This document shows positions 2,454 to 19,671 of a stretch of 49,272 nucleotides of DNA, in pieces. Made by a program: the position numbers and the translations under genes. Source of the stretch: Sulfurimonas sp. (lineage in GTDB: Bacteria; Campylobacterota; Campylobacteria; Campylobacterales; Sulfurimonadaceae); contig JALSLQ010000035.1 of NCBI GenBank assembly GCA_026988235.1, positions 1 through 49,272 on the forward strand, written 5' to 3'. Positions within the stretch are counted from its first letter, which is position 1. Each line of letters begins with the position of its first letter. The notes under the pieces are model-generated. The model searched no databases, was not told the DNA's origin, and worked only from the letters and a program-made list of their open reading frames with translations.

Positions 2454-3464
2454 ATGGTACTTGTAACCGGTGGTGCAGGCTACATAGGCTCTCATACATG
2501 TATAGAATTAGCCCAAGCAGGCTATGACTTTGTTGTGTACGACAATCTTTGTAATTCTTCTCAAGAAGCACTCAAGCGTGTTGAAAAAATAACAGGTAAA
2601 AAAATTTCTTTTATTCATGGAGATATACGGGATAAAGAGGCGTTGCAAAAAGTATTTGATACTTATAAAATAGATTCTGTTATTCATTTTGCAGGTTTAA
2701 AAGCTGTTGGTGAATCAGTAGAAAACCCCTTAGAATATTATGATAACAATGTTTACGGCACTATAGCTCTTTGTGAAGTTATGCAAAAAAACAACTGTAA
2801 AAAAATAATTTTTAGCTCTTCAGCCACCGTGTACGGCAATCCAAAAACGACGCCAATCAAAGAAAACTTTCCTTTGAGTGCGACTAACCCTTACGGACGA
2901 AGCAAGTTGTTTATAGAAGAAATTTTACGAGATATTTTTGTTTCAGATAACAAATACAAAATTATATTACTACGCTACTTCAACCCAGTGGGAGCACATA
3001 AATCAGGGCTTATCGGTGAAGACCCAAATGGAATTCCAAATAACTTGATGCCTTTTATCGCACAAGTAGCCGTTGGAAAAAGAAAACATTTAAATGTTTT
3101 TGGAAATGATTATAATACGGTTGACGGCACGGGAGTACGCGATTATATACATGTAGTTGATTTAGCAAAAGGGCATGTGCAGGCACTAAAAAAAATAGAT
3201 GCTTTAAATGATGTACTTACAGTAAACCTTGGAACAGGAAAAGGCTATTCCGTACTTGAAATGGCACAAGCATTTCAAAAGGTTTCAGGTAAAAAAATAG
3301 CATACAAAATTGCATCCAGACGTTTAGGTGACATAGCGAAATGCTATGCTGATCCGAGTTACGCCAAAGAAGTTTTAGATTGGAAAACTGTGCATACTAT
3401 AGATGAGATGTGTGAAGATATATGGAGATGGCAGTCTATGAATCCAGATGGTTATAACATCTAA
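2454..3464 (+). CDS. galE: UDP-glucose 4-epimerase GalE
   Basis: VLVTGGAGYIGSHTCIEL Rossmann motif, SSSATVYG, YGRSKLFIE, NVFGNDY..DGTGVRDYIHVVDLAKGH. Confidence 0.95.
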   Translation: MVLVTGGAGYIGSHTCIELAQAGYDFVVYDNLCNSSQEALKRVEKITGKKISFIHGDIRDKEALQKVFDTYKIDSVIHFAGLKAVGESVENPLEYYDNNVYGTIALCEVMQKNNCKKIIFSSSATVYGNPKTTPIKENFPLSATNPYGRSKLFIEEILRDIFVSDNKYKIILLRYFNPVGAHKSGLIGEDPNGIPNNLMPFIAQVAVGKRKHLNVFGNDYNTVDGTGVRDYIHVVDLAKGHVQALKKIDALNDVLTVNLGTGKGYSVLEMAQAFQKVSGKKIAYKIASRRLGDIAKCYADPSYAKEVLDWKTVHTIDEMCEDIWRWQSMNPDGYNI

Positions 3465-3496
3465 AAAGTAATTCTTTATATTGTATTAAATTAGGT

Positions 3497-3502
3497 TATA
3501 AT
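3497..3502 (+). promoter_or_regulatory. Putative -10 box (TATAAT) for the exopolysaccharide operon
   Basis: TATAAT in the intergenic gap between galE and the PAP2 gene; only a weak -35. Confidence 0.4.
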
Positions 3503-3523
3503 ATGTCTTAAAAAAGTAGATGA

Positions 3524-4156
3524 ATGCAATGTTTGGCGGAGAAAAAGCTTAAATTTATAACTCTTTTGTCCTTTATTATGTTTGCAATATTGGTATTGAC
3601 TCTTAAATTAAATATGCTTAATAATATAAACAAGACAGTATATGATTTTTACAAGGAGTATGAAAACACAAGTTTGTATAATACTTCGATGACTTTTAGT
3701 AATTTCTTTGGGTCTATTCATTCTTTATTTATCTTTTTGGTGATAATGCTTGTTTTTTTAAAATTACACAAAATAAATGAATTGATTTTTTCTGTAATTT
3801 TTGCAACTCTAAGTATTGGGGCGACTTTACTATTGAAATATAATCTTCTTGTGCAAAGACCATTGAATACTATTGTTGATCTGAGTGGATATTCATTTCC
3901 TTCAGGACATGTTGTTATGAGCTTTTTGTTGGCAGTTGTATTTTTTTTAATGGTATCGAGTGTAGTGAAAAATAGCTTTATATTGCAAAGTATTAAACTT
4001 TTGTTGGTTGTTTATGTCTTTATATCAATGTTTACGAGGGTATTTATTTGCTCACATTGGATTTCGGATGTCATAGGAAGTATACTACTTGTTATGTTTT
4101 TATACGCAGTTGCTTGTTTGTTTTTTAATACAATAAAAAATAAAGTGAATTTATAA
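3524..4156 (+). CDS. PAP2-family phosphatase (membrane)
   Basis: YSFPSGHVVMSF and SHWISDVIGSIL phosphatase motifs in a polytopic membrane protein. Confidence 0.85.
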   Translation: MQCLAEKKLKFITLLSFIMFAILVLTLKLNMLNNINKTVYDFYKEYENTSLYNTSMTFSNFFGSIHSLFIFLVIMLVFLKLHKINELIFSVIFATLSIGATLLLKYNLLVQRPLNTIVDLSGYSFPSGHVVMSFLLAVVFFLMVSSVVKNSFILQSIKLLLVVYVFISMFTRVFICSHWISDVIGSILLVMFLYAVACLFFNTIKNKVNL

Positions 4157-5662
4157 ATGGAGTCTTATATCAAAATATTAGTAAAGAATTTGCTTGTTAT
4201 TGGACTTTTATCGTCTTTTTTGCATGCAGAACCATATATGGTGAAGTTAGATGAGCCAAGTATTGTACAAAAGCTACATTTTCGAGATATAAATATTTCC
4301 AATGTATCCCAAACAGATAAAAGACCTCTGCTTGAAGACCCTAAAATATTACAAAAATATCAAATTCCAAGTAGTAACAAAAATGCAGATAATAATAATT
4401 ATGACATCTTGAATTTTAAGAATTTTCTTGCAGCTTTGTTTGAAAACAATGAAAACGCACAAGAGCTTTTTTATCAAAAAAAAATAGATTATTTGTTAAA
4501 TGAAATTAAAAAAGACAAGTATGGTTTTGATATTTTTTTAAATGCGTATGCCAGAACAGGCTCTTATATCTCAACACAGCAGACAAATCTGCCAACTACG
4601 CAGCCTGGACGTTTTGATGAATCAGGCATAGGTGCTGCGATTAATGCTAATAAATTACTTTATGATGGCCAGTACACTCTTATAAATAAAAATTATGATA
4701 TTTTACAAAAGAGACTTGCCAATATTAAGGCACTTAATGCAAAAGAGAAGTTATTACTCTTTGGTCTTAATATATATTCAAATCTATTTATTTCACAGGA
4801 AAAATTAAAACTTTTTAACGAAATGTATGATAAACAGGCTATCATGCAAAAAAAAATAGAAAAAGCATATAATCTTGGAGCAACTTCAGCATTAAATTAT
4901 ATTGATTCCAAAAATGATTTACTAAATTTAAAAAAAGCCGTTTTATCATTAACTTATGAACATTTGCATAATGAATATATTTTAAGACACAGTATAAAAG
5001 CCAAAGGTGAAAAAAGATATAGTTTACTACAAGAAAAAATGAATTTTGTATTTGATTCTTTGAGTGATTTGCAAAAAGAGGCAATACAAAATAGTAGTGA
5101 TATAGCTTTGGAATCAAACAAATTAAAAATAAATCAGACAGATTTTGTAGCACAAAAAAGAAGATATTATCCAACTGTCAATTTTAATGCACACTTGGGA
5201 TATGGTGTAGCAAATAATGCTTTATTTTTTAAAAATTTAAATAATACTGGATTTTCTCCCTATTGGGAGTTAGGTTTAACTGTAAATATTCCACTCTATA
5301 ATAGAGGGGATATACTTCTCAACAAAGAAAAAGAGCTTAATAATGTTTTATTGCAAAAAAATATACTCTCTTCAAAATCAAGAGAAATACTGATTGAAGT
5401 TGAACGCTCATATCACTCCATACAAATGATAAAACAACAGCAGAGTATATTGCAAGAACAGGTTAGATTGTTACACAAAAAAATAGAAATTGCAGCAAAA
5501 TTATATCTTGGAGGTGCTGTGCAATATCGTGACTATTCTGATGCTGTTAAAAATTATTTAGAATATAAAAGCCAAGTAATTGATTTAGATGAAAGATATA
5601 CAAAAGAGATGTTTTTATTAGCAAGCTTAATAGGAAAAAGAGATATGTATGGGCAGGATTAA
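4157..5662 (+). CDS. TolC-like outer membrane efflux protein
   Basis: Signal peptide plus long coiled-coil repeats, LYDGQYTLINKNYDIL and WELGLTVNIPLYNRGDILLNKEK typical of TolC-family proteins. Confidence 0.75.
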   Translation: MESYIKILVKNLLVIGLLSSFLHAEPYMVKLDEPSIVQKLHFRDINISNVSQTDKRPLLEDPKILQKYQIPSSNKNADNNNYDILNFKNFLAALFENNENAQELFYQKKIDYLLNEIKKDKYGFDIFLNAYARTGSYISTQQTNLPTTQPGRFDESGIGAAINANKLLYDGQYTLINKNYDILQKRLANIKALNAKEKLLLFGLNIYSNLFISQEKLKLFNEMYDKQAIMQKKIEKAYNLGATSALNYIDSKNDLLNLKKAVLSLTYEHLHNEYILRHSIKAKGEKRYSLLQEKMNFVFDSLSDLQKEAIQNSSDIALESNKLKINQTDFVAQKRRYYPTVNFNAHLGYGVANNALFFKNLNNTGFSPYWELGLTVNIPLYNRGDILLNKEKELNNVLLQKNILSSKSREILIEVERSYHSIQMIKQQQSILQEQVRLLHKKIEIAAKLYLGGAVQYRDYSDAVKNYLEYKSQVIDLDERYTKEMFLLASLIGKRDMYGQD

Positions 5663-7136
5663 AATAGTATGGACAGGTGAAGGAACTTACCCTTATGTTA
5701 CGGGTGGAGTGAGTACCTGGGCTGATATTTTAATGCATGAGTTAAAAAATATTGACTTTGTTTTAATACCGATTCAAATGCATCCTTATGTAAAATTAAA
5801 ATTTGATATTCCTCCTAATGTTGTAGATATTATAAATGTGCCTCTTTGGGGGACGGAAGAGCCTATTGAATATATACGAAAAGTAGAGTTTTCCAAAATA
5901 TATGAAGCAAAAATAAAAACACAAGTTGATGGAAATATTGAGGTTTTAGAACCTATTATAATATTAGTGCTTGAACATATCTTTCGAGATAAAAATGATT
6001 TGGATGCTTTGGGTGATGCTTTGTATGATTTTTATGAGTATTTTCATATATATGATTACTATGAAACATTTAGAAGTGAAGCAATATGGAATATTTATAA
6101 AGAGTATATTTTAAAACATTATGAAAAAACCGAGGAAGATATACCGACTGTATTTGATATGATAGAGGGGCTTCGCTATTTATACAGGTTTTTTATATCC
6201 TTACTTCCAACTTTACCAGAGGCACATATATACCACTCTTCTGCTGCCGCTTTTTGTGGTCTTTCTTGTGTGATTGCAAAAAAGAAATATGGCAGTAAGT
6301 TTCTGCTTACCGAACATGGTGTTTATATAAGAGAACAATATTTGGCTGCATCAAGAAACCAAATGCCTTTTCGTACGAAAGAGTTTTTAATGGGGCTAAT
6401 TACATTGGTGTCAAAATTAAATTTTCACTTTGCAGATATTGTTTCTCCGGTATGTAATTATAACGCTAGATGGGAAAAAAAATGGGGAGTTGATGAAAAA
6501 AAGATTCATACAATATATAATGGGATAGATACAAATATTTTTAAAAAATTTAAAGTTGAAAAAGAGGAAGATAGACCGACTGTGGTTATGGTTGCTCGAA
6601 TTGATCCTCTTAAAGACATAGAAACATTTATAAAAACTGCGCAATTAGTTGCAAAAGAAATCCCTGATGTTTTGTTTAAATTATATGGTCCTATTGTCGA
6701 TGAAAAATATTATCATCACTGCCAAGATTTAGCAAAAGAATTGAATATAGAGCATAATTTTTTATTTGCAGGACTTACTAACAGCCCGCAAAGTGCTTAT
6801 AATGAGGGGGATGTTATTATGCTTACGAGTATTTCTGAAGCCTTTCCTTTTGTTGTTATTGAAGCAATGGCTTGTGAAAAAGTTGTTATATCTTCTGATG
6901 TAGGGGGAACAAAAGAGGTACTCGAAGGCTACGGATTTGTCATAAGACCCAAAGCTTATACCGAGTTTGCCAAAAAAGTGATTTATATATTAAAAAATCC
7001 CGATGTAGCTCTAGAAATGGGTATGGATGCGCGAGAATCTATTTTGAATGGTTTTACCATTGAAGATATGGTTGAAAATTATGGACGCTTATATAAAAAT
7101 TTATATAATGAATTTCAAGAACAAAAAGGGCAATAG
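5649..7136 (+). CDS. pelF: PelF-type GT4 glycosyltransferase
   Basis: N-terminal WTGEGTYPYVTGGVSTWAD (PelF EGTYPYVxGGVSxW), TEHGVYIREQ, GIDTNIF, SISEAFPFVVIEAMACEKVVISSDVGGTKEVL. Confidence 0.9.
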   Translation: MGRIKIVWTGEGTYPYVTGGVSTWADILMHELKNIDFVLIPIQMHPYVKLKFDIPPNVVDIINVPLWGTEEPIEYIRKVEFSKIYEAKIKTQVDGNIEVLEPIIILVLEHIFRDKNDLDALGDALYDFYEYFHIYDYYETFRSEAIWNIYKEYILKHYEKTEEDIPTVFDMIEGLRYLYRFFISLLPTLPEAHIYHSSAAAFCGLSCVIAKKKYGSKFLLTEHGVYIREQYLAASRNQMPFRTKEFLMGLITLVSKLNFHFADIVSPVCNYNARWEKKWGVDEKKIHTIYNGIDTNIFKKFKVEKEEDRPTVVMVARIDPLKDIETFIKTAQLVAKEIPDVLFKLYGPIVDEKYYHHCQDLAKELNIEHNFLFAGLTNSPQSAYNEGDVIMLTSISEAFPFVVIEAMACEKVVISSDVGGTKEVLEGYGFVIRPKAYTEFAKKVIYILKNPDVALEMGMDARESILNGFTIEDMVENYGRLYKNLYNEFQEQKGQ

Positions 7137-8713
7137 TGAACAAAGAACACACTGAAGATTTAAGCTCTTTATACAATGCAATTACAGATGAAAGAGGAAA
7201 ACCGCTTGATTTTTGGGAAGTAGCGGCATTGTTAGAAGTGTATGGGATTCGTGATATTGATGCCAAAAATGATTATGGGTTTGAAAATGTATTTGATATG
7301 GCGCAATACATGATGCAATATAAAAATAGTAAAACATACCCTGTTAAAGCATTAGTCAATTTTGAAAAATTACCACCATTTTGGGTAAGGGTTTTTAAAA
7401 ATTATTTAAGAGGTTTAGCTTTTGCTATGCCTATGTTTGTTCAAATATTTTTTACACTTTCCATAGGATATGCGATTTGGTCGGGGATAGAAATGGATCA
7501 AATGAAAGCAACGGTGATTGCCGTGGGTACATTTTTGGCACTTATTATAACAGGTGCATCTGCTCAAGCGATAGGAAGAAAAGGTTTGTTTTATCTTAAG
7601 CAGGGTGAGCTTATATTGGCTTCAAATATTACAACAGTTTTACTCAATTTCGGGTATATTTTTGTATTTATTGTCGGTGTTTTTCTTATTTTTTTTAATA
7701 TGTTTTTTGAAGTATTTCCAAGTTATTACTTTTTTGTTATGATCACTTTTTATTTTCTTTTATCTTTACTCTTTTTAAATATATCTATCTATTATATGTT
7801 TGAAGAATATAACAATATTCTTTATTTTTTTATTTTAGGAATTGTATTGGTATATATTGCTCACGGTATATTTAAAATAGGTTTGTCTGAAGCACAATTT
7901 ATAGCTTTAGTCTTTTTGGATGCCATTATTTCTTTATTGGCTTATAAAAAAATTAGAGATTTAAAAAATAAAGATTTGAAATCAGAAGGAGAGTCTTTAC
8001 CTCGGGCTTCTATTCTTTTTTATTCTTTAATACCGTTTTATTTGTATGGATTTTTGTATTTTACATTTTTAGTTACTGATAGGATGGTGGCATGGAGTAC
8101 AAGTGTTGAATCTAAGCCTTACTTTATATGGTTTAATGTCCCTTATGAGTTAGGACTAGACTGGGCATTAATTGCTTTGGTCTTATTGATGGGGCTCACT
8201 GAAATAAGCATTCATGAATTTATGTATAGAATTAATGATATGGTTGTGAAATATAAATACAAAGAGTATCAACAGTTTAATGATGAAATTTATAGATTTT
8301 TTAAAAAATTTAATATAGTATATCTCATTTTATCTGTTATAATTATAGCATTAACTTATTACGCTATATACTTTTCATATTATTATATGCAGTATGATTT
8401 TACAAAGAATTTTTTTGATAGTTTTACGCCTTTTGTATATTGGGTTGCGGCAATATCATATGCATTTATGGTAAATGGACTCATGAATGTATTGTTTATG
8501 TTTTCATTTTCAAGGCAGCATTTCTCCTTAAAGGCAATCAGTATAGCAACAATAGTGAATCTAATCGTTGGTATTATTCTCAGTAGAATGTTTGGACTAG
8601 AATATGCTGTATATGGATTATTCGTGGGCAGTATAGTATTTTGGGCATATAGTTTTTCTTATTCGGTAAAAATGTTTAAAAAATTAGAATTTTATTATTA
8701 TTCATCATTTTAA
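7136..8713 (+). CDS. Polytopic membrane protein in PelG position (possible exopolysaccharide transporter)
   Basis: GTG start overlapping the pelF stop; ~90-residue soluble N-terminus followed by many TM segments; positional analogy to pelFG. Confidence 0.55.
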   Translation: MNKEHTEDLSSLYNAITDERGKPLDFWEVAALLEVYGIRDIDAKNDYGFENVFDMAQYMMQYKNSKTYPVKALVNFEKLPPFWVRVFKNYLRGLAFAMPMFVQIFFTLSIGYAIWSGIEMDQMKATVIAVGTFLALIITGASAQAIGRKGLFYLKQGELILASNITTVLLNFGYIFVFIVGVFLIFFNMFFEVFPSYYFFVMITFYFLLSLLFLNISIYYMFEEYNNILYFFILGIVLVYIAHGIFKIGLSEAQFIALVFLDAIISLLAYKKIRDLKNKDLKSEGESLPRASILFYSLIPFYLYGFLYFTFLVTDRMVAWSTSVESKPYFIWFNVPYELGLDWALIALVLLMGLTEISIHEFMYRINDMVVKYKYKEYQQFNDEIYRFFKKFNIVYLILSVIIIALTYYAIYFSYYYMQYDFTKNFFDSFTPFVYWVAAISYAFMVNGLMNVLFMFSFSRQHFSLKAISIATIVNLIVGIILSRMFGLEYAVYGLFVGSIVFWAYSFSYSVKMFKKLEFYYYSSF

Positions 8714-8716
8714 GGG

Positions 8717-10045
8717 TTGATTATGAGATGTTATAGCATAGGTATTTTATTTTTAGTTGGTTTTTTTGTTATAGGCTGTAGTACAAAATACGACAATACG
8801 CTTGAAAAAAAGATTCTTACTCCTGAATCTGTAGAAGTTTACGATATTGCTGTTAACAATGTATATGCTCAGCCAAATAACAGGACGCGTTTATTAAAAA
8901 AATTTCCTTTTATCTCAAATCAGCCTATTTTAGATTTTCATGGAAAATTTTCTGATGAGTTTTATGATAAACTTGATTATAGATATAAAGCAGCCCCTTT
9001 GAAGGATGTAGATTTTTGGAAACTTAGAACAAATCCTTTTTTAGAAGATTTTATTTATGTGCTTCCAACTTGGGTAAATAAGTTTCAAAGAGTCTCAAAT
9101 GATTTGTTTGTAAACATAGGGTACAGCTACAATCTTTCTTCCAAAGAACAAGAAATACTGAAATGGTGGATAGGCCAAGGTGGTATACTGTGGATAGAGG
9201 GAGGAATTTATTCCACACGCTATGACACTTTTAAGAGAAACGGCGAGATTGCTTCTAAACAAATCATGCAAAAAATCATACAAAAAAGCAAAAATATGAA
9301 CTTTTTTGATAAAAAAGTAAAAACATATATATATAAAAGTAAAAGAGTGGACTTTATAAACTATATTCCATTAAACATTACATTTAATACAGATAATACG
9401 CTTGCTTATTTTAAAGATATAAAAACATTAAAGATACAAACACAAAATTATCTTTCAGCTGATTTTTTACCACAGGCAGAGTACCTTATAAAGACTAATA
9501 TGCAAAAACCACTTGTCTCTTTCATTCCTTATGGGAAAGGGGGCGTCATATTTGTAAGACCATTTGAATTTAAAGACAAAAGATTTGATGGTGAGTTACT
9601 TCGTTGGAAGCTTCTTTACTTTTTGTTGAACAAAATGTATAAAAACAGTCATCAAGTTATAAAAGCTGAAGATACTACTGTAACTCAAAAACTCCAAAAG
9701 TATAAGCGTTTAGTTCTAAATAATTTAGAATTTGAGTATAAATCATCTCAAATAAAAAAAAAGAGTTTGCAACTTTTAAAACCTATTAGTGCTTATTTGC
9801 AAACACATAAAAATGTTCGTCTTTTAATAACAGGCTATACAGATAACATAGGTTCGAAAAAATATAATAAGCATTTGTCTACCCAAAGAGCACTCTCTGT
9901 CAGAACAGCCTTAGTCAAAATGGGTATTTCAGCAAAAAGGCTCTCCTGCATTGGATATGCCGATGAAAATCCAATTGCATCAAATGAAACATCGCAAGGA
10001 CGAGCTAAAAACAGAAGAGTAGAATTCATTATAATACAAAGGTAA
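8717..10045 (+). CDS. Lipoprotein with central DUF4159/GATase-like region and C-terminal OmpA-like peptidoglycan-binding domain (likely start ATG 8723)
   Basis: Lipobox FVIGCS; WWIGQGGILWIEGG; C-terminal LITGYTDNIGSKKYNKHLSTQRALSVRTALVKMGI..RGRAKNRRVEF-type OmpA signature. Confidence 0.7.
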   Translation: MIMRCYSIGILFLVGFFVIGCSTKYDNTLEKKILTPESVEVYDIAVNNVYAQPNNRTRLLKKFPFISNQPILDFHGKFSDEFYDKLDYRYKAAPLKDVDFWKLRTNPFLEDFIYVLPTWVNKFQRVSNDLFVNIGYSYNLSSKEQEILKWWIGQGGILWIEGGIYSTRYDTFKRNGEIASKQIMQKIIQKSKNMNFFDKKVKTYIYKSKRVDFINYIPLNITFNTDNTLAYFKDIKTLKIQTQNYLSADFLPQAEYLIKTNMQKPLVSFIPYGKGGVIFVRPFEFKDKRFDGELLRWKLLYFLLNKMYKNSHQVIKAEDTTVTQKLQKYKRLVLNNLEFEYKSSQIKKKSLQLLKPISAYLQTHKNVRLLITGYTDNIGSKKYNKHLSTQRALSVRTALVKMGISAKRLSCIGYADENPIASNETSQGRAKNRRVEFIIIQR

Positions 10046-10051
10046 GCAGAA

Positions 10052-12220
10052 ATGTTTTTACCAGATGCTTCTTTTATTGATTTACATGTAATATCTACCA
10101 TATTCTATAAAAATATTTGGTATTTGATAAAATTACTTTTAGTGGCATATGTTGTGTTTTATTATACTCCATCAAAAATTTTCCCTCAAGAACATATTAA
10201 AAGTGGTATGCAAAAAATAGTTTTTAACTTTGTGTATATGACTGCTTATATAGAAATAGTCGTTCCTTTTTTGATTTTTATTAAAATTTTCAGTCTTCTT
10301 TTCTTTATTTTAGTCTTAATCGCGACAAAATTTGCTTTTATGCACTTTTATTACAAACGAGATATTTTTAAAATTATGAATGATTTAAGAATCAACTTGA
10401 TGCTTAAAGTGCTTAATATCCTTGACAAACCAAATGAATTTAAACAAAATTTGCTTAAATATTTCCATGAAAATCTGATTACTTTTCAGCGTTCTATAAC
10501 CTTAAATACATTTTTAAAAAATATACTTTTCTATGCTATATTTATATATATCTTTTCTACGTTAATGCTTAGGGGTATGTTGAGTTATAGTGATCCTGTA
10601 CTCGATACTGCACAATTTATGGAATGGGTCGGTTATTTGCAAGAAAATATTTTATATGCAGACAATAAAACATTTGGTGCAGATTTTTATGGTATCTCAA
10701 TCTTAATATTTTTTGTTAATATTTTTACAAATATAGATCAAATAATATTATTTAGTCTTTATCCTATTTTATTGCTTCTTGCTTTATACTTTAGTATTTA
10801 TTATATTATAAAAGACATCACATCTTCTTCATATACTGCTTTGTTCGCCGTCATGGTACATGGGATGATTTTGATGACGCCTTTGTCTGATGTGTTGCTT
10901 GGAGAGATAGTTGTGACAGCTCATCCCCATCTCGTTAATTTTTACGGATTAAAATTTTATATGCCCACAAGCTTGGATGTACTTAAAAATGGAAATAATA
11001 TAGGGTTTACGCCCTACATCCGTTATATATCAGGAATGGCGTATGAACATGCCTCTATTTTTGTATTTTTAAATGCTCATTTTTTAATTAAAACATTAGA
11101 AACAAAATTTACAAAGTATTTTGTGATGTATACGTTAACACTTATGTTGGTTTTTATCTTCCATGGCGGTGGAGCTATTATCTTAATATTTATTAGTATT
11201 TTAATCGCTATAAATGGTGCTCTTTTTAGAAAAATAGATTTGAAGCTCCTTAAAAAAGGTATTTTAGCCATTTTATCGGCTGCAATTTTTGGAAATTTGT
11301 GGATATTGTCAATGTTAAAGTATGGTATACCGCAAGATTTTGGTGCAGCAGCTCCTATGCTTGATAAGTTAATGGGAACACAAAAAAATATTCAGAATAT
11401 TGCCGCAACAGGATTTTCTGAAGTCTCAATTATAAATATAACACAGTTTCAGTTATTTTTATTGATAAGTTTATTTTTTGCTTTTATTGTATCTTTTTTT
11501 TCAAAAAAAAAGTTTATTAATAGCTCGTATCTACTAATAGTATTTGCAATATTTATGCTATATTTTGGACCAAATGCAGGTTTGCCCTTATTGGCAAAAC
11601 AGGATAGACTTGCAGAATATATATTTTATGCAATTACTATTTTAAGTGCCTTTTACTTTTTTTACTTTATCTATAAACCAATATTGTTAGTATTTAAAAA
11701 ATATTCTAAGTCAGTATTTTTGTTGCTATTTTATACATTGTTTGTAATTTTATCTTTAGGCTTAACTATATGGGCAGATACAAATATTTTTTGGAAAAAT
11801 ATAAATCAAACACAATATACTTCAATTCCACAAATAATTTTGAGAATAAATAAACAAAATAGACCTTTTACATGGACAGCAGTAGCATATGTTCAAAGTT
11901 ATGCTAAAATTAAAAATAAAGGCTACCATATAAATAGTCAAAATTTCATTTTAAGATATAAGCCAAATGCTGAGTTTTTAACAATACCGACAGGAAAAAT
12001 CTTTATATTTGTTGAAAATTATCCAAATTCTTACAAAGGAATGGATGAGTGGTTTTATAGATGGAGAAATAGGATTCAATCAAATATGAAAAGTTGGATA
12101 GCTATATATACTATGAATCATAACAACATAAAGATATATGCACAAACAAAAACAGTTACAGCATATGAAATTGATAACAATGAATATATGAAATACCTAA
12201 GCAAAGGAAAAGCAAAGTGA
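10052..12220 (+). CDS. Large polytopic membrane protein (polymerase/GT-C-like candidate)
   Basis: 722 aa with many predicted TM helices inside the EPS operon; family not recognised. Confidence 0.55.
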   Translation: MFLPDASFIDLHVISTIFYKNIWYLIKLLLVAYVVFYYTPSKIFPQEHIKSGMQKIVFNFVYMTAYIEIVVPFLIFIKIFSLLFFILVLIATKFAFMHFYYKRDIFKIMNDLRINLMLKVLNILDKPNEFKQNLLKYFHENLITFQRSITLNTFLKNILFYAIFIYIFSTLMLRGMLSYSDPVLDTAQFMEWVGYLQENILYADNKTFGADFYGISILIFFVNIFTNIDQIILFSLYPILLLLALYFSIYYIIKDITSSSYTALFAVMVHGMILMTPLSDVLLGEIVVTAHPHLVNFYGLKFYMPTSLDVLKNGNNIGFTPYIRYISGMAYEHASIFVFLNAHFLIKTLETKFTKYFVMYTLTLMLVFIFHGGGAIILIFISILIAINGALFRKIDLKLLKKGILAILSAAIFGNLWILSMLKYGIPQDFGAAAPMLDKLMGTQKNIQNIAATGFSEVSIINITQFQLFLLISLFFAFIVSFFSKKKFINSSYLLIVFAIFMLYFGPNAGLPLLAKQDRLAEYIFYAITILSAFYFFYFIYKPILLVFKKYSKSVFLLLFYTLFVILSLGLTIWADTNIFWKNINQTQYTSIPQIILRINKQNRPFTWTAVAYVQSYAKIKNKGYHINSQNFILRYKPNAEFLTIPTGKIFIFVENYPNSYKGMDEWFYRWRNRIQSNMKSWIAIYTMNHNNIKIYAQTKTVTAYEIDNNEYMKYLSKGKAK

Positions 12221-13722
12221 GTGTATTTGAGCAAAGTCGGTATTATTTTAATGAAGTTTTACCACAAATTATTCTTTCTAATGTATTAGAAATAAACAAT
12301 TTTTTAAGTTCCTTTTGGTTTGTTTTCTTTTTTATTTCAATTATTTTCTTTGTACTCATATTACAATTATTTAGAAAGAAACTTTATATAAAAGATACGC
12401 ATCAAAGTTTTGATGAATTTTTACATGAACTATGTGATAAAGTGCAAAAAAAAGATGTAGAAGAAAAACTTTTGGAATGTTCCCAATTAGTTAAAGCAAA
12501 ATATAGTGCTTTGTACGAGTTAAGGGGAGAAACATATATACTCATAGAGAGTAATACGGCGAATCATACAGATGTTAATGCTCCTCTAAGAGTAGGAAGA
12601 AAAACCTTACAAACATTTAAAAAAAGTGGAAATTATCGAGTGACATCAATTGTAAATAATAGTAAAGATAAGATGTTGCTACTTTTTAGCACGCAAAAAC
12701 TAAATATAGAAGCTGAATATGGGCATTTTGATATTATGCTGAGTTATTATGAACAAATCTCAAATAAATTTATGATTGAAGGTGTAGAAGAACAATCAGA
12801 TATAGGAAAAAATACCTCTATATCTTTAATGAAATTACAAATGGATAAAAATCAGTTTTTTAAATTTTTTGTGGCTCTTGTGATAAAGATTACAAAAGCG
12901 CAAGGTGCAAAACTTGTCACTAAAGATAATCAAATTGTTTTTGAGTATGCAACATCTAAAGATATTTCTTTGCAAAAAGTTTTTTATATCCGAAATACAC
13001 CATATAAATTAGAATTTTATGATACAAAAATATTAAGTAGTGAAAATGTTGCACAGGTCGGTGCATTTTTAGATATGGCTGGAAGTTCTTTAATGAATAT
13101 AGACCAAAATAGTGAAATGATACAAAATTATTTGTCATTTTTAAAGTTTACAAATGAAGCAATAGAATTGGAGAATAAATATTATAAAAATCACTCTTTC
13201 ATTGTTCAGACTATTTCTGTAGAGCTTGCAAAATCGCTCTTTTTATCTGAAAATGAGATAGACACTATCTCATTGGGTGCTTATTTGCATGATATTGGTA
13301 TGATTGGCGATCTTTTAGCGGTTATAAACAAAGATACATGTGAAGAGAAAGATATGAACTTAATAAAAGAGCATCCTCTTATCGGCAGTATCATTGTAGA
13401 ACCCATTTGCCATGTTTATCCCATTGAAAACATTGTTAAATATCATCATGAACGTTTTGATGGAAGAGGTTACCCATTTGGTCTCAAAGAATCACAAATT
13501 CCTCTTGAAGCACAAGTTGTATCTGTTGGAGAATTTTATGCAGGTATAACAAGTGATAGATCTTATAAACAGGGAAAAACTCATGAAGAAGCAGTTGTGG
13601 AAATACGAAATTTACGAGAAAAAATGTTTAGTGGGGTGATGGTTGATGCATTTTTAGATATTGAGCAGTCTCTCAAAACAAAAATAGATAAAATTAAAAT
13701 GAAAAAGGATGAACTTGCATAA
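12217..13722 (+). CDS. Membrane-anchored HD-GYP domain protein
   Basis: N-terminal TM helix; LGAYLHDIGMIGD, EHPLIGSII, VKYHHERFDGRGYPFG, SDRSYK. Confidence 0.85.
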   Translation: MSVFEQSRYYFNEVLPQIILSNVLEINNFLSSFWFVFFFISIIFFVLILQLFRKKLYIKDTHQSFDEFLHELCDKVQKKDVEEKLLECSQLVKAKYSALYELRGETYILIESNTANHTDVNAPLRVGRKTLQTFKKSGNYRVTSIVNNSKDKMLLLFSTQKLNIEAEYGHFDIMLSYYEQISNKFMIEGVEEQSDIGKNTSISLMKLQMDKNQFFKFFVALVIKITKAQGAKLVTKDNQIVFEYATSKDISLQKVFYIRNTPYKLEFYDTKILSSENVAQVGAFLDMAGSSLMNIDQNSEMIQNYLSFLKFTNEAIELENKYYKNHSFIVQTISVELAKSLFLSENEIDTISLGAYLHDIGMIGDLLAVINKDTCEEKDMNLIKEHPLIGSIIVEPICHVYPIENIVKYHHERFDGRGYPFGLKESQIPLEAQVVSVGEFYAGITSDRSYKQGKTHEEAVVEIRNLREKMFSGVMVDAFLDIEQSLKTKIDKIKMKKDELA

Positions 13723-14407
13723 TAATTCTTCTGGTACAGCTATTGTCATTCCTCTTTATAACGAACAAACCGTTATTGCCGATGTTTTGCAAGAACTTCA
13801 TGAAAAATATCCTGAATATCTTTTAATTGTTGTGGATGATAATTCAACAGATGAGAGTGCAAAAAAAGCCTGCATGTCGAATGTTTATCTTTTGCATCAT
13901 ACTGTAAATTTGGGGCAGGGTGCAGCATTGCAGACTGGTCTTGAATATGCAAAAGAGTTAGAATGTAAATATGTCGTAACTTTTGATGCTGATGGACAAC
14001 ATGACCCTGATGACATAGCTTTATTTGTGCAAACATTACAAAATGATGAAGCGGATATTGTTTTAGGTTCAAGATTTTTAGGTAAAACACAAAATATGCC
14101 ATTGAGAAAAAAGTATTTACTGCAGGCATCGAGACTTTTTACATGGATGACAACGGGAATGTGGCTTACTGATTCCCATAATGGGCTTCGTGCTATCAAT
14201 ATAGAAAAATTTCCTCAGTTTGAGATTACACAAAACAGAATGGCACATGCTTCAGAAATAATTAGTATAATTAAAACACTGAAGATGCGTTATATTGAAA
14301 AACCATGCAATATACGATACACACAGTACTCTATAGAAAAAGGACAGTCTATGTTTAACAGCATTAATATTGTTATTGACTACTTTGTCGGGAATATGAT
14401 GAAATGA
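13709..14407 (+). CDS. Family 2 glycosyltransferase (dolichol-phosphate mannosyltransferase-like)
   Basis: IVIPLYNEQTVI, VVDDNSTDES, TFDADGQHDPDDI, GSRFLG motifs. Confidence 0.9.
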   Translation: MNLHNNSSGTAIVIPLYNEQTVIADVLQELHEKYPEYLLIVVDDNSTDESAKKACMSNVYLLHHTVNLGQGAALQTGLEYAKELECKYVVTFDADGQHDPDDIALFVQTLQNDEADIVLGSRFLGKTQNMPLRKKYLLQASRLFTWMTTGMWLTDSHNGLRAINIEKFPQFEITQNRMAHASEIISIIKTLKMRYIEKPCNIRYTQYSIEKGQSMFNSINIVIDYFVGNMMK

Positions 14408-14730
14408 TATTTATTAAATTTTTACTTATTCTAATCCTTACTCTTGGTTTTGTAATTTTTTCTTTTTCTTCAAAGTTGAAAATATTTCAAAAACTTTTTA
14501 TAATAGCCGGCTATGCGGTCGTTTTTTTCTTTATTCTTTATCCGTCTTATTCGGATGACATTGCACATATGGCTTCTATTAAAAGTGGGACAGATCTCAT
14601 TGTTTATATAGTACTCGCTTTAACAGTATTAATGAATATTGTTCTTTATGTAGGACAAAATAATAACAATAGGATGATAACAAAAATTATAAGGGAAACT
14701 GCTAAAAAAAATGCAAAAAAATGTCAATAA
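14404..14730 (+). CDS. DUF2304-like small membrane protein
   Basis: ~108 aa, 3 TM helices, immediately follows GT2 (common GT2-DUF2304 pairing). Confidence 0.6.
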   Translation: MIFIKFLLILILTLGFVIFSFSSKLKIFQKLFIIAGYAVVFFFILYPSYSDDIAHMASIKSGTDLIVYIVLALTVLMNIVLYVGQNNNNRMITKIIRETAKKNAKKCQ

Positions 14731-15625
14731 CTCTATGCTTTTAACAAAGCCATTTCTTTATAAATTTAAAAATGCTTTAATGGAGTGTTATGGATATAAA
14801 AATTATATGGATTTTCTAATTGTTCCATCTTTATCAAGGCAAAAAACACTCTCATATCTCCCACTGCTTAACTATACGGACAGATGTTATGATGAGGTTG
14901 ATGATTTGCTAGAGTTAGCAAAAGACAATACTTTCCAAATAAGAACATTGAATTTTTTATACAGCGACTTCAAGCAGAATGACACAGTAACAATGCGCTT
15001 GGATATTGATACAAAATCAAGTGAACGCCTTTTTAGTGAAGATGTAAAATCACGATGCAGAAATAAAGTAAGAAATGCAGCAAAAAAGAATGATTACAAA
15101 CTTGTATATGGACATAATGCTCAAGATATAGAAGCTTTTTATGAAATTTTTAGTGACACAATGCATAAACACGGTACACCGGTATTGGATAAAAAAATAT
15201 TTTACGCTTTGGCTGAAGAGTTTGAAGATGAAATTATTTTTTTTACTCTTTATGATAATACGCAAGTTGTAGCAACTATGTGTATACTATTAGATGAAAA
15301 AATTGCATGGTACCCTTGGGGTGGTGTTAAAAATTCTTATGCAAATAAATTGGCAGGATATTATATTTATTGGGAAGTATTAAAATATATATGTGATTAT
15401 ACAGATAAAAAAATATTTGATTTTGGCAGATCTTCATATGGCGGGTCTACCTACAAGTTTAAATCACAATTTGGTGCGAAACCGGTAAAAATAGATATTT
15501 TAACATCTCAGCAGACTGATATTTATTCAAAATATTCTCTCGCATCACAAATTTGGAAAAAACTTCCCAAGCAAGTTGTCGATTTTATCGGTCCAAAATT
15601 ATGTAAATATTTGGTGGATTTATGA
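14711..15625 (+). CDS. FemAB/GNAT-like acyl/peptidyl transferase
   Basis: FYEIFSDTMHKHGTPVLDKKIF, YYIYWEVLKYICD, FDFGRSSYGGSTYKFKSQFGAKP typical of FemAB-related EPS-locus proteins. Confidence 0.8.
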   Translation: MQKNVNNSMLLTKPFLYKFKNALMECYGYKNYMDFLIVPSLSRQKTLSYLPLLNYTDRCYDEVDDLLELAKDNTFQIRTLNFLYSDFKQNDTVTMRLDIDTKSSERLFSEDVKSRCRNKVRNAAKKNDYKLVYGHNAQDIEAFYEIFSDTMHKHGTPVLDKKIFYALAEEFEDEIIFFTLYDNTQVVATMCILLDEKIAWYPWGGVKNSYANKLAGYYIYWEVLKYICDYTDKKIFDFGRSSYGGSTYKFKSQFGAKPVKIDILTSQQTDIYSKYSLASQIWKKLPKQVVDFIGPKLCKYLVDL

Positions 15626-16374
15626 TGTGGCTTACTATAGATGTTGAAGAAGTAACTGATATGAATTTTGATGTGAAATGGAGAGAAAAACCACAGTTAG
15701 TGTATGAAGAGTATATAGATACTTTTATAGAGTTTTCTAAAAATCGTAAAGCAACTGCCTTCGTCCTTGGAAGTTTCGCGAAAAAATATCCTGATATAGT
15801 ACAAAAACTTTCTCAAAATGGTGTCGAAATAGCTTGTCATGGTTTGCATCATAATCTTGTATATACAGAAGAATTTGATACTTGGAGCAAAGATCTCTCA
15901 GAAGCAAAAAAGATTCTCCAAGAACTTACAGGCAAGCCAGTCCACGGATATAGAAGCCCAAGTTGGTCAATGCCTTTTGAAAAGAAATATTATGAAAAGT
16001 TGGCACAAATAGGGTTTACATATTCTTCATCTTATTTTCCTATGAAGAATTACATGTATGGAAATAGCATAAACAAAAAAACTCCTTTTATTATTTATAC
16101 TGACTATGGTGAAATTCAAGAACGACCAATACCTAAAAATATTATTCCTTTTAGCGGTGGTTTTTATTTGCGTGTACTACCATTATGGTTTTTAAAAATT
16201 TTGTTTAAAAGGACGAAAAATTCGATTTTGTATGTACATCCTTATGAGTTGATAGATGAAAATTTATTGCGTTATTATAAAAAATATGCTGCATATAATC
16301 TTGATTACTTTTTGGCATTTTATGCTTCAAGTAGTGCGAGAAATAAGATAAGAATACTTTTAAATGAAAAATAA
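15622..16374 (+). CDS. Polysaccharide deacetylase (NodB-homology, EPS-locus DUF3473-like)
   Basis: LTIDVEE, ACHGLHHN, GYRSPSWSM motifs. Confidence 0.85.
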   Translation: MMWLTIDVEEVTDMNFDVKWREKPQLVYEEYIDTFIEFSKNRKATAFVLGSFAKKYPDIVQKLSQNGVEIACHGLHHNLVYTEEFDTWSKDLSEAKKILQELTGKPVHGYRSPSWSMPFEKKYYEKLAQIGFTYSSSYFPMKNYMYGNSINKKTPFIIYTDYGEIQERPIPKNIIPFSGGFYLRVLPLWFLKILFKRTKNSILYVHPYELIDENLLRYYKKYAAYNLDYFLAFYASSSARNKIRILLNEK

Positions 16375-17269
16375 AATCGTTCAAATTGTTTTACTAGTTG
16401 CTCTGTTTATCTATCTTTTTTATGGTTTTGATGTGAAAAAAATTGATTTTGATAAATTTTCTCTGTTGGGAACTTTTGCTACATTTGTTGTTGTATTTAT
16501 TTCTCAGGTAGTTTTGAGTATGCGATGGATGAAGATGTCTGACTTGTCTTTTAAAATTTCTTTTGAAACTATTATAGTTTCAAGTGCACTCAATATGATT
16601 TTACCGGCAAAACTAGGAGAACTTTCAAAAGCACTGTATCTCAAAAAGTTCTATAAATACAACTATCACAAAACACTTTCAATTATATTTGTAGAACGTT
16701 TTTTTGATGTCATTATGCTTTTTTTATTGCTGTGTATCTGGGCATATAGCTATACTTCAAGTGATATGGTTAAGTCTTCTTTAATTGTTTTGAGTATCTT
16801 AATTGTTATGACTATTTTCTTTTTTAATTCAAACAAAGCATTTGTGTCACTTAAAAAGATACCTTTGCAGTTTTTACGGATTTATTTACAAAAAATTTAT
16901 AAAGTTGTGCATAAAATGCTTAAATCACCTTTGTCTCTTTCTCTGTATACAGGACTACTATGGCTTACATATTTTCTTAGTACTTGTGTACTTTTTACTT
17001 ATGCAGTTCCTTTGCATTTGGATATTATGACGCTACTGGGGCTATTTATTTTTTCTACGATTGCATTATCTGTACCACTAGCCCCTGCAGGAATAGGTAC
17101 ATATGAAGCGGCTGTTGTTTTTTATTTAAGCATGTATGGTGTTAGTAAAGAAGACGCATTATTCGCTGCAACACTTTACCATATTTTATTATTTAGTGTA
17201 GATTTTTTGTTGTTATATCTATTTTTGTTTATAAAAGATATAAAACTCAAAGAGTTGATAAAACAATGA
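16364..17269 (+). CDS. Flippase-like / lysylphosphatidylglycerol synthase TM-domain protein
   Basis: LNMILPAKLGELSKALYLKKF, PLAPAGIGTYEAAVVFYLSMYGVS motifs; polytopic. Confidence 0.85.
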   Translation: MKNKIVQIVLLVALFIYLFYGFDVKKIDFDKFSLLGTFATFVVVFISQVVLSMRWMKMSDLSFKISFETIIVSSALNMILPAKLGELSKALYLKKFYKYNYHKTLSIIFVERFFDVIMLFLLLCIWAYSYTSSDMVKSSLIVLSILIVMTIFFFNSNKAFVSLKKIPLQFLRIYLQKIYKVVHKMLKSPLSLSLYTGLLWLTYFLSTCVLFTYAVPLHLDIMTLLGLFIFSTIALSVPLAPAGIGTYEAAVVFYLSMYGVSKEDALFAATLYHILLFSVDFLLLYLFLFIKDIKLKELIKQ

Positions 17270-18684
17270 AAATATCTTTGTTACATGTAAGCTTTTTATT
17301 ACTCTTCTTTTCACTCTTTTGTAGAGCAGAAACTATTGAAAACTCTATACTTGCCAAAAAAAATTCTTTTTCTAGTTTTACAATAAAAGATGATGTGAAT
17401 ATAACGAAAAAAAAAGGAGAGTATACGCTTGCTTCACCATTTGGTGATAAGAGTGAAATGAAGTGGGCGAAAAAATTCAATATCGTTGAACTTGGTAATG
17501 TTGAAAATCAGGATGTGAGTTATGAGCTACTGAGTAAAAAAGGCTTGTTACATGTAGCGCATCCTATTGCTTACGACTGGATGCCTGCATTTTATTATTA
17601 TACTGAAGGAAAAAATAGAGAATTTGTTGATTGGCTGTATAAAAACAGGCATATGACAACATTAAACCCTCAGGGTCCTTTTTTACATTGTAAAGAAAAT
17701 CATTATGATTGGTGTCAGGATTATTACTATAACTTGGCAAATAAAGAAGTATTGCAAAAACGGGTAGATGATTTACTGAAAAATATGAAGCTTCGTGGTT
17801 TTAGAGGTCTCTTTTTTGATTGGGCATCAGGCAGTTATATTGAAGAAGAAGTTTATAAACCAATACTACAAATTTTTAATAAGATACAGACACAAAAAAA
17901 CTACTTTGATTTTGTAAGTCAGTTTTATCAAAAACTGAACGCTTTAAATATATTTGTTATAACAAATCAGGGATTTAGAAAAGCAAAATATATCCTTCCC
18001 TTTGTAAGTTATGATATGACAGAGAGTTATATAACAACCGATGTAAGAAAAAAAATAAAAATACAAGTAGAAAAAAAAGGTTGGGTTGATTCTGTCATGG
18101 TGACAAACTACTATCCAATTTATGAAGATTCAAAAAACTTAAAAGATTCATTGAAATTTATAGATTTACTTAGTAGTTATAAGAAAAAGTATAAAAAATA
18201 TGGTTTTAAGAATTTTATTTATCTTAATTATTTAGCACCTGAGTATGAGAAAGTGTATGAAAGTAGTTCGCTTTATCGTATGAAAAAGCCAAAAAATGGC
18301 ATATATTTTAGTTATGCCATGGCAAAACTAGCAGATAGCATGGTTTATGCAGAAGTCTCAGAAAATAGAAAGCTTGAGAGAGATGAGGTTTATTTTTATG
18401 ATTTAGGCAAAGCATTAGGAAAAAAATATGAAAAACTTGATGCCATAGACGGTTACATTCGTTTTTATAAAAAAGGTTTCGTTTTAGTCTCACAAGCGTA
18501 TTCTACAGAACTTTATCTCAAAATTAAATCTAAATATCTGAAAAAAAATACAAAGATTTATGATACATATAATGAAAATTATTTAAAAGTTGGCAAAGAA
18601 AGTGTAACTGTGCCTTTAAAATACCAACAAGAGACCTTTGGGCAAAAATATTTGCCATTGGGTAGAGTTTATTTATATTTTTGA
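17266..18684 (+). CDS. Secreted GH114/PelA-N-like glycoside hydrolase
   Basis: Signal peptide; RGFRGLFFDWASG, VITNQGF, VSYDMTESYITTD consistent with an endo-alpha-1,4-polygalactosaminidase-like TIM barrel. Confidence 0.6.
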   Translation: MKISLLHVSFLLLFFSLFCRAETIENSILAKKNSFSSFTIKDDVNITKKKGEYTLASPFGDKSEMKWAKKFNIVELGNVENQDVSYELLSKKGLLHVAHPIAYDWMPAFYYYTEGKNREFVDWLYKNRHMTTLNPQGPFLHCKENHYDWCQDYYYNLANKEVLQKRVDDLLKNMKLRGFRGLFFDWASGSYIEEEVYKPILQIFNKIQTQKNYFDFVSQFYQKLNALNIFVITNQGFRKAKYILPFVSYDMTESYITTDVRKKIKIQVEKKGWVDSVMVTNYYPIYEDSKNLKDSLKFIDLLSSYKKKYKKYGFKNFIYLNYLAPEYEKVYESSSLYRMKKPKNGIYFSYAMAKLADSMVYAEVSENRKLERDEVYFYDLGKALGKKYEKLDAIDGYIRFYKKGFVLVSQAYSTELYLKIKSKYLKKNTKIYDTYNENYLKVGKESVTVPLKYQQETFGQKYLPLGRVYLYF

Positions 18685-19671
18685 TTGTATTTCAATGACT
18701 TTTTCTTTTTTGTTGTGCAAAAAATATTTTTTAACACTTGCTTGCCCTTCTTTAGAGAGTTCAATTGTTACTAAAGCTCGTGTTCCCGGCTGAAGAATAT
18801 AATTTTGATTTGGGACAACTATATCAAGAGTCATACTATCAAATGTTGGATTTACTATAGGACTGATTTGTTTAATGGTAGACTTTACCATGTAAGGGGG
18901 AGTTGTGACAAAACTGACAGTTACTGCTTTGTTTACATGTAAAAAAGGAAGCAATCCCGTTGCAAAACCAGCTTTAACAATGACCTTATTAAGATTAATA
19001 ATAGTACACACTTTTTTGTCATTTCCTATTGTTTGACCCTCTTGTGCTTGAATATCTGCAACAAAACCATTAATAGTAGCATATCCATCTGCGTGTTTGA
19101 TTGCATACTGTAATTTTTTCAGTTCTATTTTTTTTGTTATGAGTGAGGCGTCAAGTGTTTTTAGTCTTTCATAGTTATTCGCATTTTGAGATTGTTGTGC
19201 GTTTAGCGTGTTTATATAGTTCTTTTTATAGTTATTTTGCTCAAAGTCTTGTATATAGCCTTCTGATTTGAGTAAAGCTATCTTTTTTAGCTCCATAGCA
19301 GCTAAATTGACATCTGCAGTATTATGTGCCGTGCGTATATTTGTAGCTAAATTGTTCCTGATTTGTTGTAAGGAAGCAATTTCTGCCTGCTTATTTTGTA
19401 TGTCTAAATTGATAAGTTCTTTATCAAGAGAATAGATATGCTCACCTTTTATAACTTTGTCCCCATACTTTATATATAAATGTTTTATTTTTCCCGATAT
19501 AGTAGATATAATATCTTGACGCTGTAGAGGATATACAGCACCTTCAATACGGATACTGACATTATTATCTGAAACTTTGAGTTCTTTTTCTTCTTGAGAT
19601 TTTGCACAACCATTCAAAATAAAAATAAGGAGTGTACTGAGTAGAAATAACTTTGTTGTATAAAAATTCAT
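18673..19671 (-). CDS. HlyD/RND-type periplasmic adaptor (lipoprotein)
   Basis: Lipobox IFILNGCAKS; VYPLQRQDIISTISGKIKHLYIKYGDKVIKGE.IYSLD; coiled coil; DGYATINGFVADIQAQEGQTI. Confidence 0.85.
   Translation of the reverse strand: MNFYTTKLFLLSTLLIFILNGCAKSQEEKELKVSDNNVSIRIEGAVYPLQRQDIISTISGKIKHLYIKYGDKVIKGEHIYSLDKELINLDIQNKQAEIASLQQIRNNLATNIRTAHNTADVNLAAMELKKIALLKSEGYIQDFEQNNYKKNYINTLNAQQSQNANNYERLKTLDASLITKKIELKKLQYAIKHADGYATINGFVADIQAQEGQTIGNDKKVCTIINLNKVIVKAGFATGLLPFLHVNKAVTVSFVTTPPYMVKSTIKQISPIVNPTFDSMTLDIVVPNQNYILQPGTRALVTIELSKEGQASVKKYFLHNKKEKVIEIQSKI

Follow-up and report, generated by a model that had tools for sequence, protein, structure and literature searches.

A gene block in the 49,272-nucleotide Sulfurimonas sp. 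contig analyzed here (the window) is, on balance, likely to encode a Pel-related system, in which a backbone made by PelF and a PelG-like protein is decorated in the periplasm with a lipid-linked amino sugar and exported through a TolC-like channel. On this reading, what the block has in common with Pel is limited to the inner-membrane synthase, formed by PelF and the PelG homologue, and to a hydrolase of the PelA type. The genes named in the first-pass annotation at positions 3524–18684 are all present as overlapping or abutting plus-strand ORFs, and the run of about 15 kb around PelF and a protein in the PelG position was borne out by these ORFs and by Pfam and NCBIfam scans. The block is a single syntenic unit, better bounded by galE (2454–3464) and an HlyD-type lipoprotein gene (18673–19671, minus strand), since the galE–HlyD segment is precisely what is missing from close relatives in which the site is empty. 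All coordinates are on the plus strand unless otherwise stated.

Six genes, encoding the TolC-like protein, PelF, the PelG-like protein, a lipoprotein, a 722-aa protein, and a GAF-HD-GYP protein, form a core whose order is the same in every sufficiently complete related locus. The survey of gene order proposed in the first-pass annotation found this order in Sulfurimonas, Nitratiruptor, Arcobacteraceae, and other Campylobacterota, genomes with long contigs included; the order is more than chance. The core has so far been found only in Campylobacterota (Sulfurimonas, Nitratiruptor, and Arcobacteraceae MAGs). The TolC-like gene comes first in the core in all complete loci, and the HlyD-type lipoprotein gene comes last in the block and is present in nearly every locus whose contig extends that far. 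A PAP2 phosphatase gene (3524–4156; PF01569, 43.9 bits), possibly for a polyprenyl-(di)phosphate phosphatase, is not universal and was seen in loci L046, L048, and L031.

The claim of a PelF-type GT4 polymerase (5649–7136) holds, with 164 bits to NF038011 against the NCBIfam cut-off of 100, 136 bits to DUF3492, and an hhalign probability of 100 against canonical PelF. Its identity to canonical PelF is about 24%, and its clade is fully apart from canonical PelF in the tree (support 100/100), the sequence comparisons together identifying a true but deeply divergent PelF. The PelG-like polytopic protein (7136–8713) scores 14.4 bits to PF16933 by itself, where the cut-off is 29. Among its orthologues, 17 of 20 match this family (best 2e-9), and those in genomes G203 and G172 exceed the cut-off (37.4 and 34.4 bits). 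Direct hhalign against Campylobacterota PelG was no better than shuffles, so the case for kinship comes from the broad Pfam profile, which points to a remote PelG homologue. The protein was looked for on plasmids and was not found there.

The absence of canonical PelB, PelC, PelD, and PelE noted at first reading was confirmed by Pfam and NCBIfam scans and profile comparisons of the block; profile searches thus did not recover the full PelA–G set under divergence. The scans gave no PelB match in the block, where a TolC-like outer-membrane protein (OEP; 4157–5662; PF02321, 83 bits) is found instead. Similarity of window proteins to PelC is confined to signal peptides; matches of the lipoprotein and the HlyD protein to PelC were rejected as signal peptide or lipobox only. 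Canonical PelE profiles matched no window protein above decoys. No PelD was found in the block, and a PF16963 (PelD) search of the own genome gave no match, though its positive control gave none either. We do not claim the HD-GYP N terminus as PelD (hhalign P = 0.9%, although above all 40 shuffles). The central domain of PelA was also rejected as a counterpart of the N-terminal domain of the lipoprotein, 8 of 40 shuffles being as good.

The secreted 472-aa glycoside hydrolase-like protein (17266–18684) belongs to no Pfam or NCBIfam family. It had been placed among the non-canonical partners; the gene is present, but profile comparison suggests that it is itself a Pel relative. Against the N terminus of canonical PelA, hhalign gave P = 67% and E = 5e-5, with 0 of 100 shuffles as good, and the catalytic-strand Asp, Asn, and Glu align with those of the PelA hydrolase domain. 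Asp185, Asn234, and Glu253 are invariant in the protein. These observations point, weakly, to kinship with the PelA hydrolase domain. The profile comparison was used in place of AlphaFold2, which gave a pLDDT of 45 from five sequences. PDB sequence searches with profiles of this protein and of the 722-aa protein gave nothing useful.

The 722-aa protein (10052–12220), described at first as a membrane protein, is one, and its nature as a GT-C glycosyltransferase emerged from AlphaFold2 and Foldseek. It has no Pfam or NCBIfam match. The model (pLDDT 73, pTM 0.72) resembles OST/STT3, DPY19, PglB, AftA, and ALG9 with modest TM-scores of about 0.36, and Asp185 and Asp211 are invariant. Judging from the model, it folds as a GT-C integral membrane glycosyltransferase and is a novel core protein. 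Its gene lies between the lipoprotein and HD-GYP genes inside the core of every complete locus, often in tandem copies.

The core lipoprotein (8717–10045) has an invariant lipobox (Gly20–Cys21), a domain of about 300 residues of no known family, and a C-terminal OmpA peptidoglycan-binding domain (84 bits). In 16 orthologues, the C terminus is OmpA in five, SPOR in three, and neither in eight. The HD-GYP protein (12217–13722; PF13487, 75.6 bits) has a transmembrane segment and, by eye, two GAF-like regions. Compared with PmGH (4mcw), it keeps the metal ligands except for Glu185, replaced by Tyr, and Asp305, replaced by Glu. It is a candidate node of c-di-GMP control in the place of PelD, but it might instead work as a catalytically active phosphodiesterase and not as a sensor. 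The HlyD/RND-type periplasmic adaptor lipoprotein (PF16576, 66 bits) is the likely partner of the TolC-like protein, itself the likely outer-membrane channel.

Downstream of the core, a GT2 gene (13709–14407) encodes a PpgS-like polyprenyl-phosphate amino-sugar synthase, judging from a full-length match to NF058614 (PpgS) of 213 bits, below the cut-off of 370. PpgS is its best family by 150 bits (the next gives 62), and it is the only strong NF058614 copy in the genome; the family exceeds its cut-off in one control genome. The abutting gene (14404–14730) encodes a small DUF2304 membrane protein (PF10066, 43.5 bits; cut-off 25.5), the proposed GT2 partner. Both genes had been noted as exopolysaccharide parts; they are present, and they resemble the mycobacterial PpgS/Rv3632 pair, not a chain-forming glycosyltransferase. 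Next come a FemAB/GNAT-type transferase (14711–15625; PF13480, 44 bits), a CE4/NodB-fold polysaccharide deacetylase with DUF3473 (15622–16374; PF01522, 58 bits; PF11959, 52 bits), and an LPG_synthase_TM protein (16364–17269; PF03706, 113 bits; TIGR00374, 49.7 bits, cut-off 43.2) that is a candidate lipid-phosphate-sugar flippase. These family matches substantiate the proposed joining of lipid-linked-sugar genes to the PelF/PelG cluster. GalE (TIGR01179, 465 bits; its gene is absent from the empty site of the relatives) reads '...GDIAKCYADPS' where human GALE (1hzj) has '...GDVAACYANPS'. From the Cys at the position of the human substrate gatekeeper, formation of UDP-GalNAc is predicted. The amino-sugar product suggested at first reading is plausible.

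In mycobacteria, galactosamine is brought to arabinogalactan by an epimerase, PpgS with Rv3632, flipping and deacetylation, and the GT-C protein Rv3779 (PMC9671496). By analogy, GalE, the PpgS-like GT2, DUF2304, the flippase-like protein, the deacetylase, and the GT-C protein together match this pathway (Rv3634c, PpgS Rv3631, Rv3632, Rv3779): both have an epimerase, a PpgS-type GT2 with a small membrane partner (DUF2304 here, a family also found in C. glutamicum), and a GT-C transferase. Unlike in mycobacteria, the acceptor would be a Pel-like chain, the GT2 is below the PpgS cut-off, and the GT-C likeness is at the fold level only.

The route that we infer would begin with UDP-GalNAc from GalE. 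PelF would polymerize a hexosamine chain that exits through PelG while, in parallel, the GT2 and DUF2304 proteins would load an amino sugar onto polyprenyl phosphate. The flippase-like protein would flip the loaded lipid, the deacetylase would expose the amine, and the GT-C protein, acting in the periplasm, would attach the amino sugar to the chain as it emerges. The polymer would leave through the TolC-like channel and HlyD lipoprotein, the peptidoglycan-anchored lipoprotein would hold the export path, the hydrolase would trim the chain, and the GAF-HD-GYP protein would tie activity to c-di-GMP, replacing PelD. The polymer-making half of Pel is thus combined with different decorating and exporting genes, and the product is probably an undescribed Pel-like coat sugar of vent-dwelling Campylobacter relatives. 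More tentatively, the cluster could represent a distinct synthase-dependent class, with a cytoplasmic PelF/PelG chain, periplasmic branching by GT-C with a flipped polyprenyl-phosphate amino sugar, and a TolC-type tripartite exit. In such a class, the branch sugar would depend on which GT2 has been swapped in. Sulfurimonas-type loci that lack the PpgS-like GT2 usually have another polyprenyl-phosphate-type GT2 (AglJ/PgfS/ArnC-like) in its place, which suggests that the GT-C protein is normally accompanied by a lipid-sugar synthase.

If the proposed route is true, it would show the PelF/PelG synthase to be modular, able to combine with lipid-linked decoration and with a TolC-type exporter, neither of which is reported for Pel in the literature searched. 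A search of incomplete coverage also found no description of this cluster. The mycobacterial galactosamine pathway still lacks a flippase and a deacetylase, and the cluster supplies named candidates for both. Its product would also be a likely biofilm sugar in Sulfurimonas and Nitratiruptor, two Campylobacterota genera that live at hydrothermal vents and in similar habitats.

It is rather unlikely that the block is a divergent but ordinary Pel system, making the usual α-1,4 GalNAc/GalN polymer with non-homologues in place of PelB–E and the PelA deacetylase while the GT-C and lipid-linked genes do other envelope work. Its likenesses to pelABCDEFG are as follows: a PelF above the cut-off followed by a PelG-like protein, a PelA-type hydrolase, a GalE neighbor, a c-di-GMP-type protein, a deacetylase, and the same chromosomal site. 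At this moeA/rnhB site, close relatives G034 and G060 carry canonical pel instead, and relatives G020 and G428 carry neither. Gram-positive pel (pelDEADAFG) has also lost PelB/C and split PelA; however, it keeps PelD and PelE (PMC7112168), both missing here. A GT-C gene inside the core of every complete locus, often in tandem, is odd for a bystander, and the PelF clade is fully separate. The cluster further differs from Pel in its TolC-like and HlyD exporter, its lipid-linked sugar genes, a GAF-HD-GYP protein where PelD has GAF and degenerate GGDEF, and a CE4/DUF3473 deacetylase with no detectable relation to the PelA C-terminal deacetylase domain (hhalign; 2 of 40 shuffles as good).

Two neighboring systems, a core exporter/synthase and an independent GT2-DUF2304-FemAB-deacetylase-flippase unit modifying lipid A, O-antigen, or peptidoglycan, are less probable still. 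The decorating genes do vary by locus: they form a separate convergent unit in Nitratiruptor, are reduced or replaced in L035, L049, L053, and L059, and are absent from the 13-kb contig of Arcobacteraceae locus L044. However, the second unit lies beside the core across several genera, the GT2 start at 13709 overlaps the HD-GYP gene end at 13722, Sulfurimonas-type loci without the PpgS-like GT2 have a broadly similar GT2 in its position, and the only nearby GT-C is the core's own. The suggested link to lipid-linked exosortase (XrtA/PEP-CTERM) exopolysaccharide is mostly refuted and very improbable, since the resemblance of the deacetylase to TIGR03006 (137 bits; cut-off 276) and of FemAB to TIGR03019 (131 bits; cut-off 260) reaches half of the cut-offs, the 92.6% complete genome has no match to exosortase PF09721 (the control matched), and Pfam/NCBIfam scans recognized no Wzx/Wzy or initiating phosphoglycosyltransferase family in the block.

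No genome has both this cluster and canonical pel; since chance alone predicts just one or two such genomes, mutual exclusion is not claimed. Low GC was rejected as a sign of foreign DNA: it is 0.325 versus 0.44 at codon positions 1–2 and 0.223 versus 0.25 at position 3, and a drop that hardly touches position 3 is mostly due to the composition of membrane proteins. For gain or loss, the comparison with empty sites is a better guide than GC. In Nitratiruptor, paralogues of the hydrolase and GT-C genes form a separate two-gene pair.

The run of overlapping plus-strand genes described in the first-pass annotation is real: positions 3524-18684 hold 13 ORFs, all on the plus strand and overlapping or abutting. 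Pfam and NCBIfam scans assigned a PAP2 protein, a TolC-like OEP, PelF, a PelG-like protein, a lipoprotein with an OmpA domain (8717-10045), an HD-GYP protein (12217-13722), a GT2 nearest to PpgS, a DUF2304 protein, a FemAB/GNAT protein, a CE4 deacetylase with DUF3473 and a flippase-like protein (LPG_synthase_TM). A 722-aa protein and a 472-aa GH-like protein received no family. The galE gene lies directly ahead of the run, and a minus-strand HlyD-type lipoprotein gene directly after it.

The cluster is conserved. The order OEP, PelF, PelG-like protein, lipoprotein, 722-aa protein, HD-GYP protein is intact in all loci with sufficient contig, and 20 of 398 Campylobacterales genomes, in six genera, have a PelG-like relative. 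The 722-aa profile found 26 loci among 84,980 species, in Campylobacterota only (Sulfurimonas, Nitratiruptor, Sulfurimonadaceae and Arcobacteraceae MAGs), though the scan relies on two short peptide patterns and may overlook distant relatives. The nearest locus to the window's is in Sulfurimonas MAG JALUXS01. In most loci this six-gene core has a second unit (GT2, DUF2304, FemAB, deacetylase, flippase, HlyD) beside it, which is arranged in line with the core in Sulfurimonas types and is convergent to it in the Nitratiruptor loci. Only Sulfurimonas-type loci have the GH-like gene next to the core. No description of the cluster was found in the part of the literature that was searched.

The earlier view of a divergent Pel-like operon stands in part: PelF, a relative of the PelA hydrolase and, remotely, PelG were recognised. 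PelF was correctly named as such (NF038011, 164 bits against a curated cut-off of 100; DUF3492). It shares ~24% identity with canonical PelF proteins from this order, and the two groups split at 100/100 on very long branches. The PelG-like protein is probably a remote PelG homologue. It scores 14.4 bits with PF16933 (cut-off 29), a family matched by 17 of its 20 orthologues (best 2e-9), with two from Nitratiruptor exceeding the cut-off; direct comparison of its profile with a local PelG profile was no better than shuffles. Judged by sequence, the GH-like protein is akin to the hydrolase domain of PelA (P=67%, E=5e-5; alignment score 41.7, with the best of 100 shuffles reaching 30.3). The aligned segments are GLFFDWASGSY/LFLDTLDSY, VITNQGFR/IILNRGFE and DMTESY/VAAESLY, and the residues D185, N234 and E253 of the GH-like protein do not vary among 11 sequences. 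As in the annotation, canonical PelB-E were not recognised: profile comparison gave no PelC, PelD or PelE counterpart, and family scans recognised no PelB. Because of these absences, and because the deacetylase is of a different type from that of PelA, we do not call the cluster Pel. The main texts of two Pel surveys (PMC7112194, PMC7112168) do not mention Campylobacter or Epsilonproteobacteria.

An AlphaFold2 model of the 722-aa protein, built with 13 orthologues (pLDDT 73, pTM 0.72), places it in the GT-C fold class. All top 15 PDB matches are GT-C enzymes or GT-C-containing complexes, among them OST/STT3 (E=6e-4, probability 1.0), DPY19, PglB and AftA; the modest TM-scores (~0.36) support the class but not a particular enzyme. 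D185 and D211 are invariant. Tandem copies of the gene occur in three loci (L032, L051, L056), and three Nitratiruptor loci have a separate pair of GH and GT-C paralogues with no PelF/PelG adjoining, the GH paralogue lying near 8.3 (L062), 8.3 (L064) and 6.2 kb (L069). In another Nitratiruptor locus (L037:6866-11680), a GT-C gene already split in two has undergone tandem duplication (2.39 kb); the duplicates share the split point and are ~94% identical over the entire unit without gaps. The mycobacterial protein Rv3779 is a GT-C enzyme.

The GT2 scores 213 bits with PpgS (next family, 62) and is the sole strong PpgS-like copy in the genome. With the aid of Rv3632, PpgS loads polyprenyl phosphate with GalNAc taken from UDP; flipping and deacetylation of this product fall to factors yet to be identified in that pathway, and Rv3779 attaches galactosamine to arabinogalactan (PMC9671496). 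One control genome, presumably Corynebacterium glutamicum, has PpgS over the cut-off. This species has a DUF2304 protein, which would be its Rv3632 homologue. Compared with that pathway, the window block holds epimerase, GT2, small partner, flippase-like protein, deacetylase and GT-C together. Its GalE aligns a Cys with Cys307 of human GALE, the residue permitting N-acetyl sugars. Sulfurimonas-type loci without the PpgS-like GT2 have an AglJ/PgfS/ArnC polyprenyl-phosphate-type GT2 instead, often with a different flippase-like gene; neither was seen within the short contig of Arcobacteraceae L044. This replacement points to a functional link between the GT-C protein and lipid-phosphate-sugar supply. 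The cluster probably works like a Pel synthase coupled to a PpgS-type decoration pathway, in which the GT-C protein would add a lipid-linked amino sugar to the PelF product and the TolC-like protein would export it.

In the lipoprotein, a ~300-aa domain past the lipobox is conserved, and the C-terminus is OmpA in 5, SPOR in 3 and absent in 8 of 16 orthologues. Such exchange (OmpA, SPOR repeats or nothing) is seen at window 8717-10045, L060, L061 and L066; the replacement of one peptidoglycan-binding domain by another suggests that the protein is anchored to the wall. The HD-GYP protein retains the PmGH ligands H189, H221-D222, H250 and H276-H277 (PmGH numbering). It has Y for E185, E for D305 (E in 13 of 13 sequences) and HDIGM for HDIGK, and could act as a receptor or be an altered phosphodiesterase. 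By eye, two regions further upstream resemble GAF domains, and the second contains an invariant IRNTP motif (residues 258-262).

The chromosomal site should also be noted. In the genomes of two relatives (G428, G020) moeA-u181-rnhB-AAA is contiguous with no insert; in the window and L046 the galE-to-HlyD block lies between u181 and rnhB; and in G034 and G060 canonical pelC-D-E-F-G-A adjoins rnhB. A single site therefore holds either system or none, and the block exchanges with canonical pel there. The moeA/u181-rnhB site (window 3465-19671; L099, L121, L122, L123) is apparently an exchange site for biofilm sugar systems among Sulfurimonas-type genomes. Canonical PelG exceeds the cut-off, at ~400 bits or more, in ~31 of 299 Campylobacterales (33 hits in total, two of them window-type), with the order C-D-E-F-G-A in the loci read, and is absent from the window genome. 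An AAA/DUF4143-like ATPase (20268-21332, minus) is conserved across the genus (46 of 50 genomes), mostly close to rnhB and the ribosomal protein operon. Elsewhere in the window (37687-39855, minus), a rhodanese-domain protein gene adjoins an AIR-synthase-type (selenophosphate-synthetase-like) gene, and the two may be a selenouridine pair.
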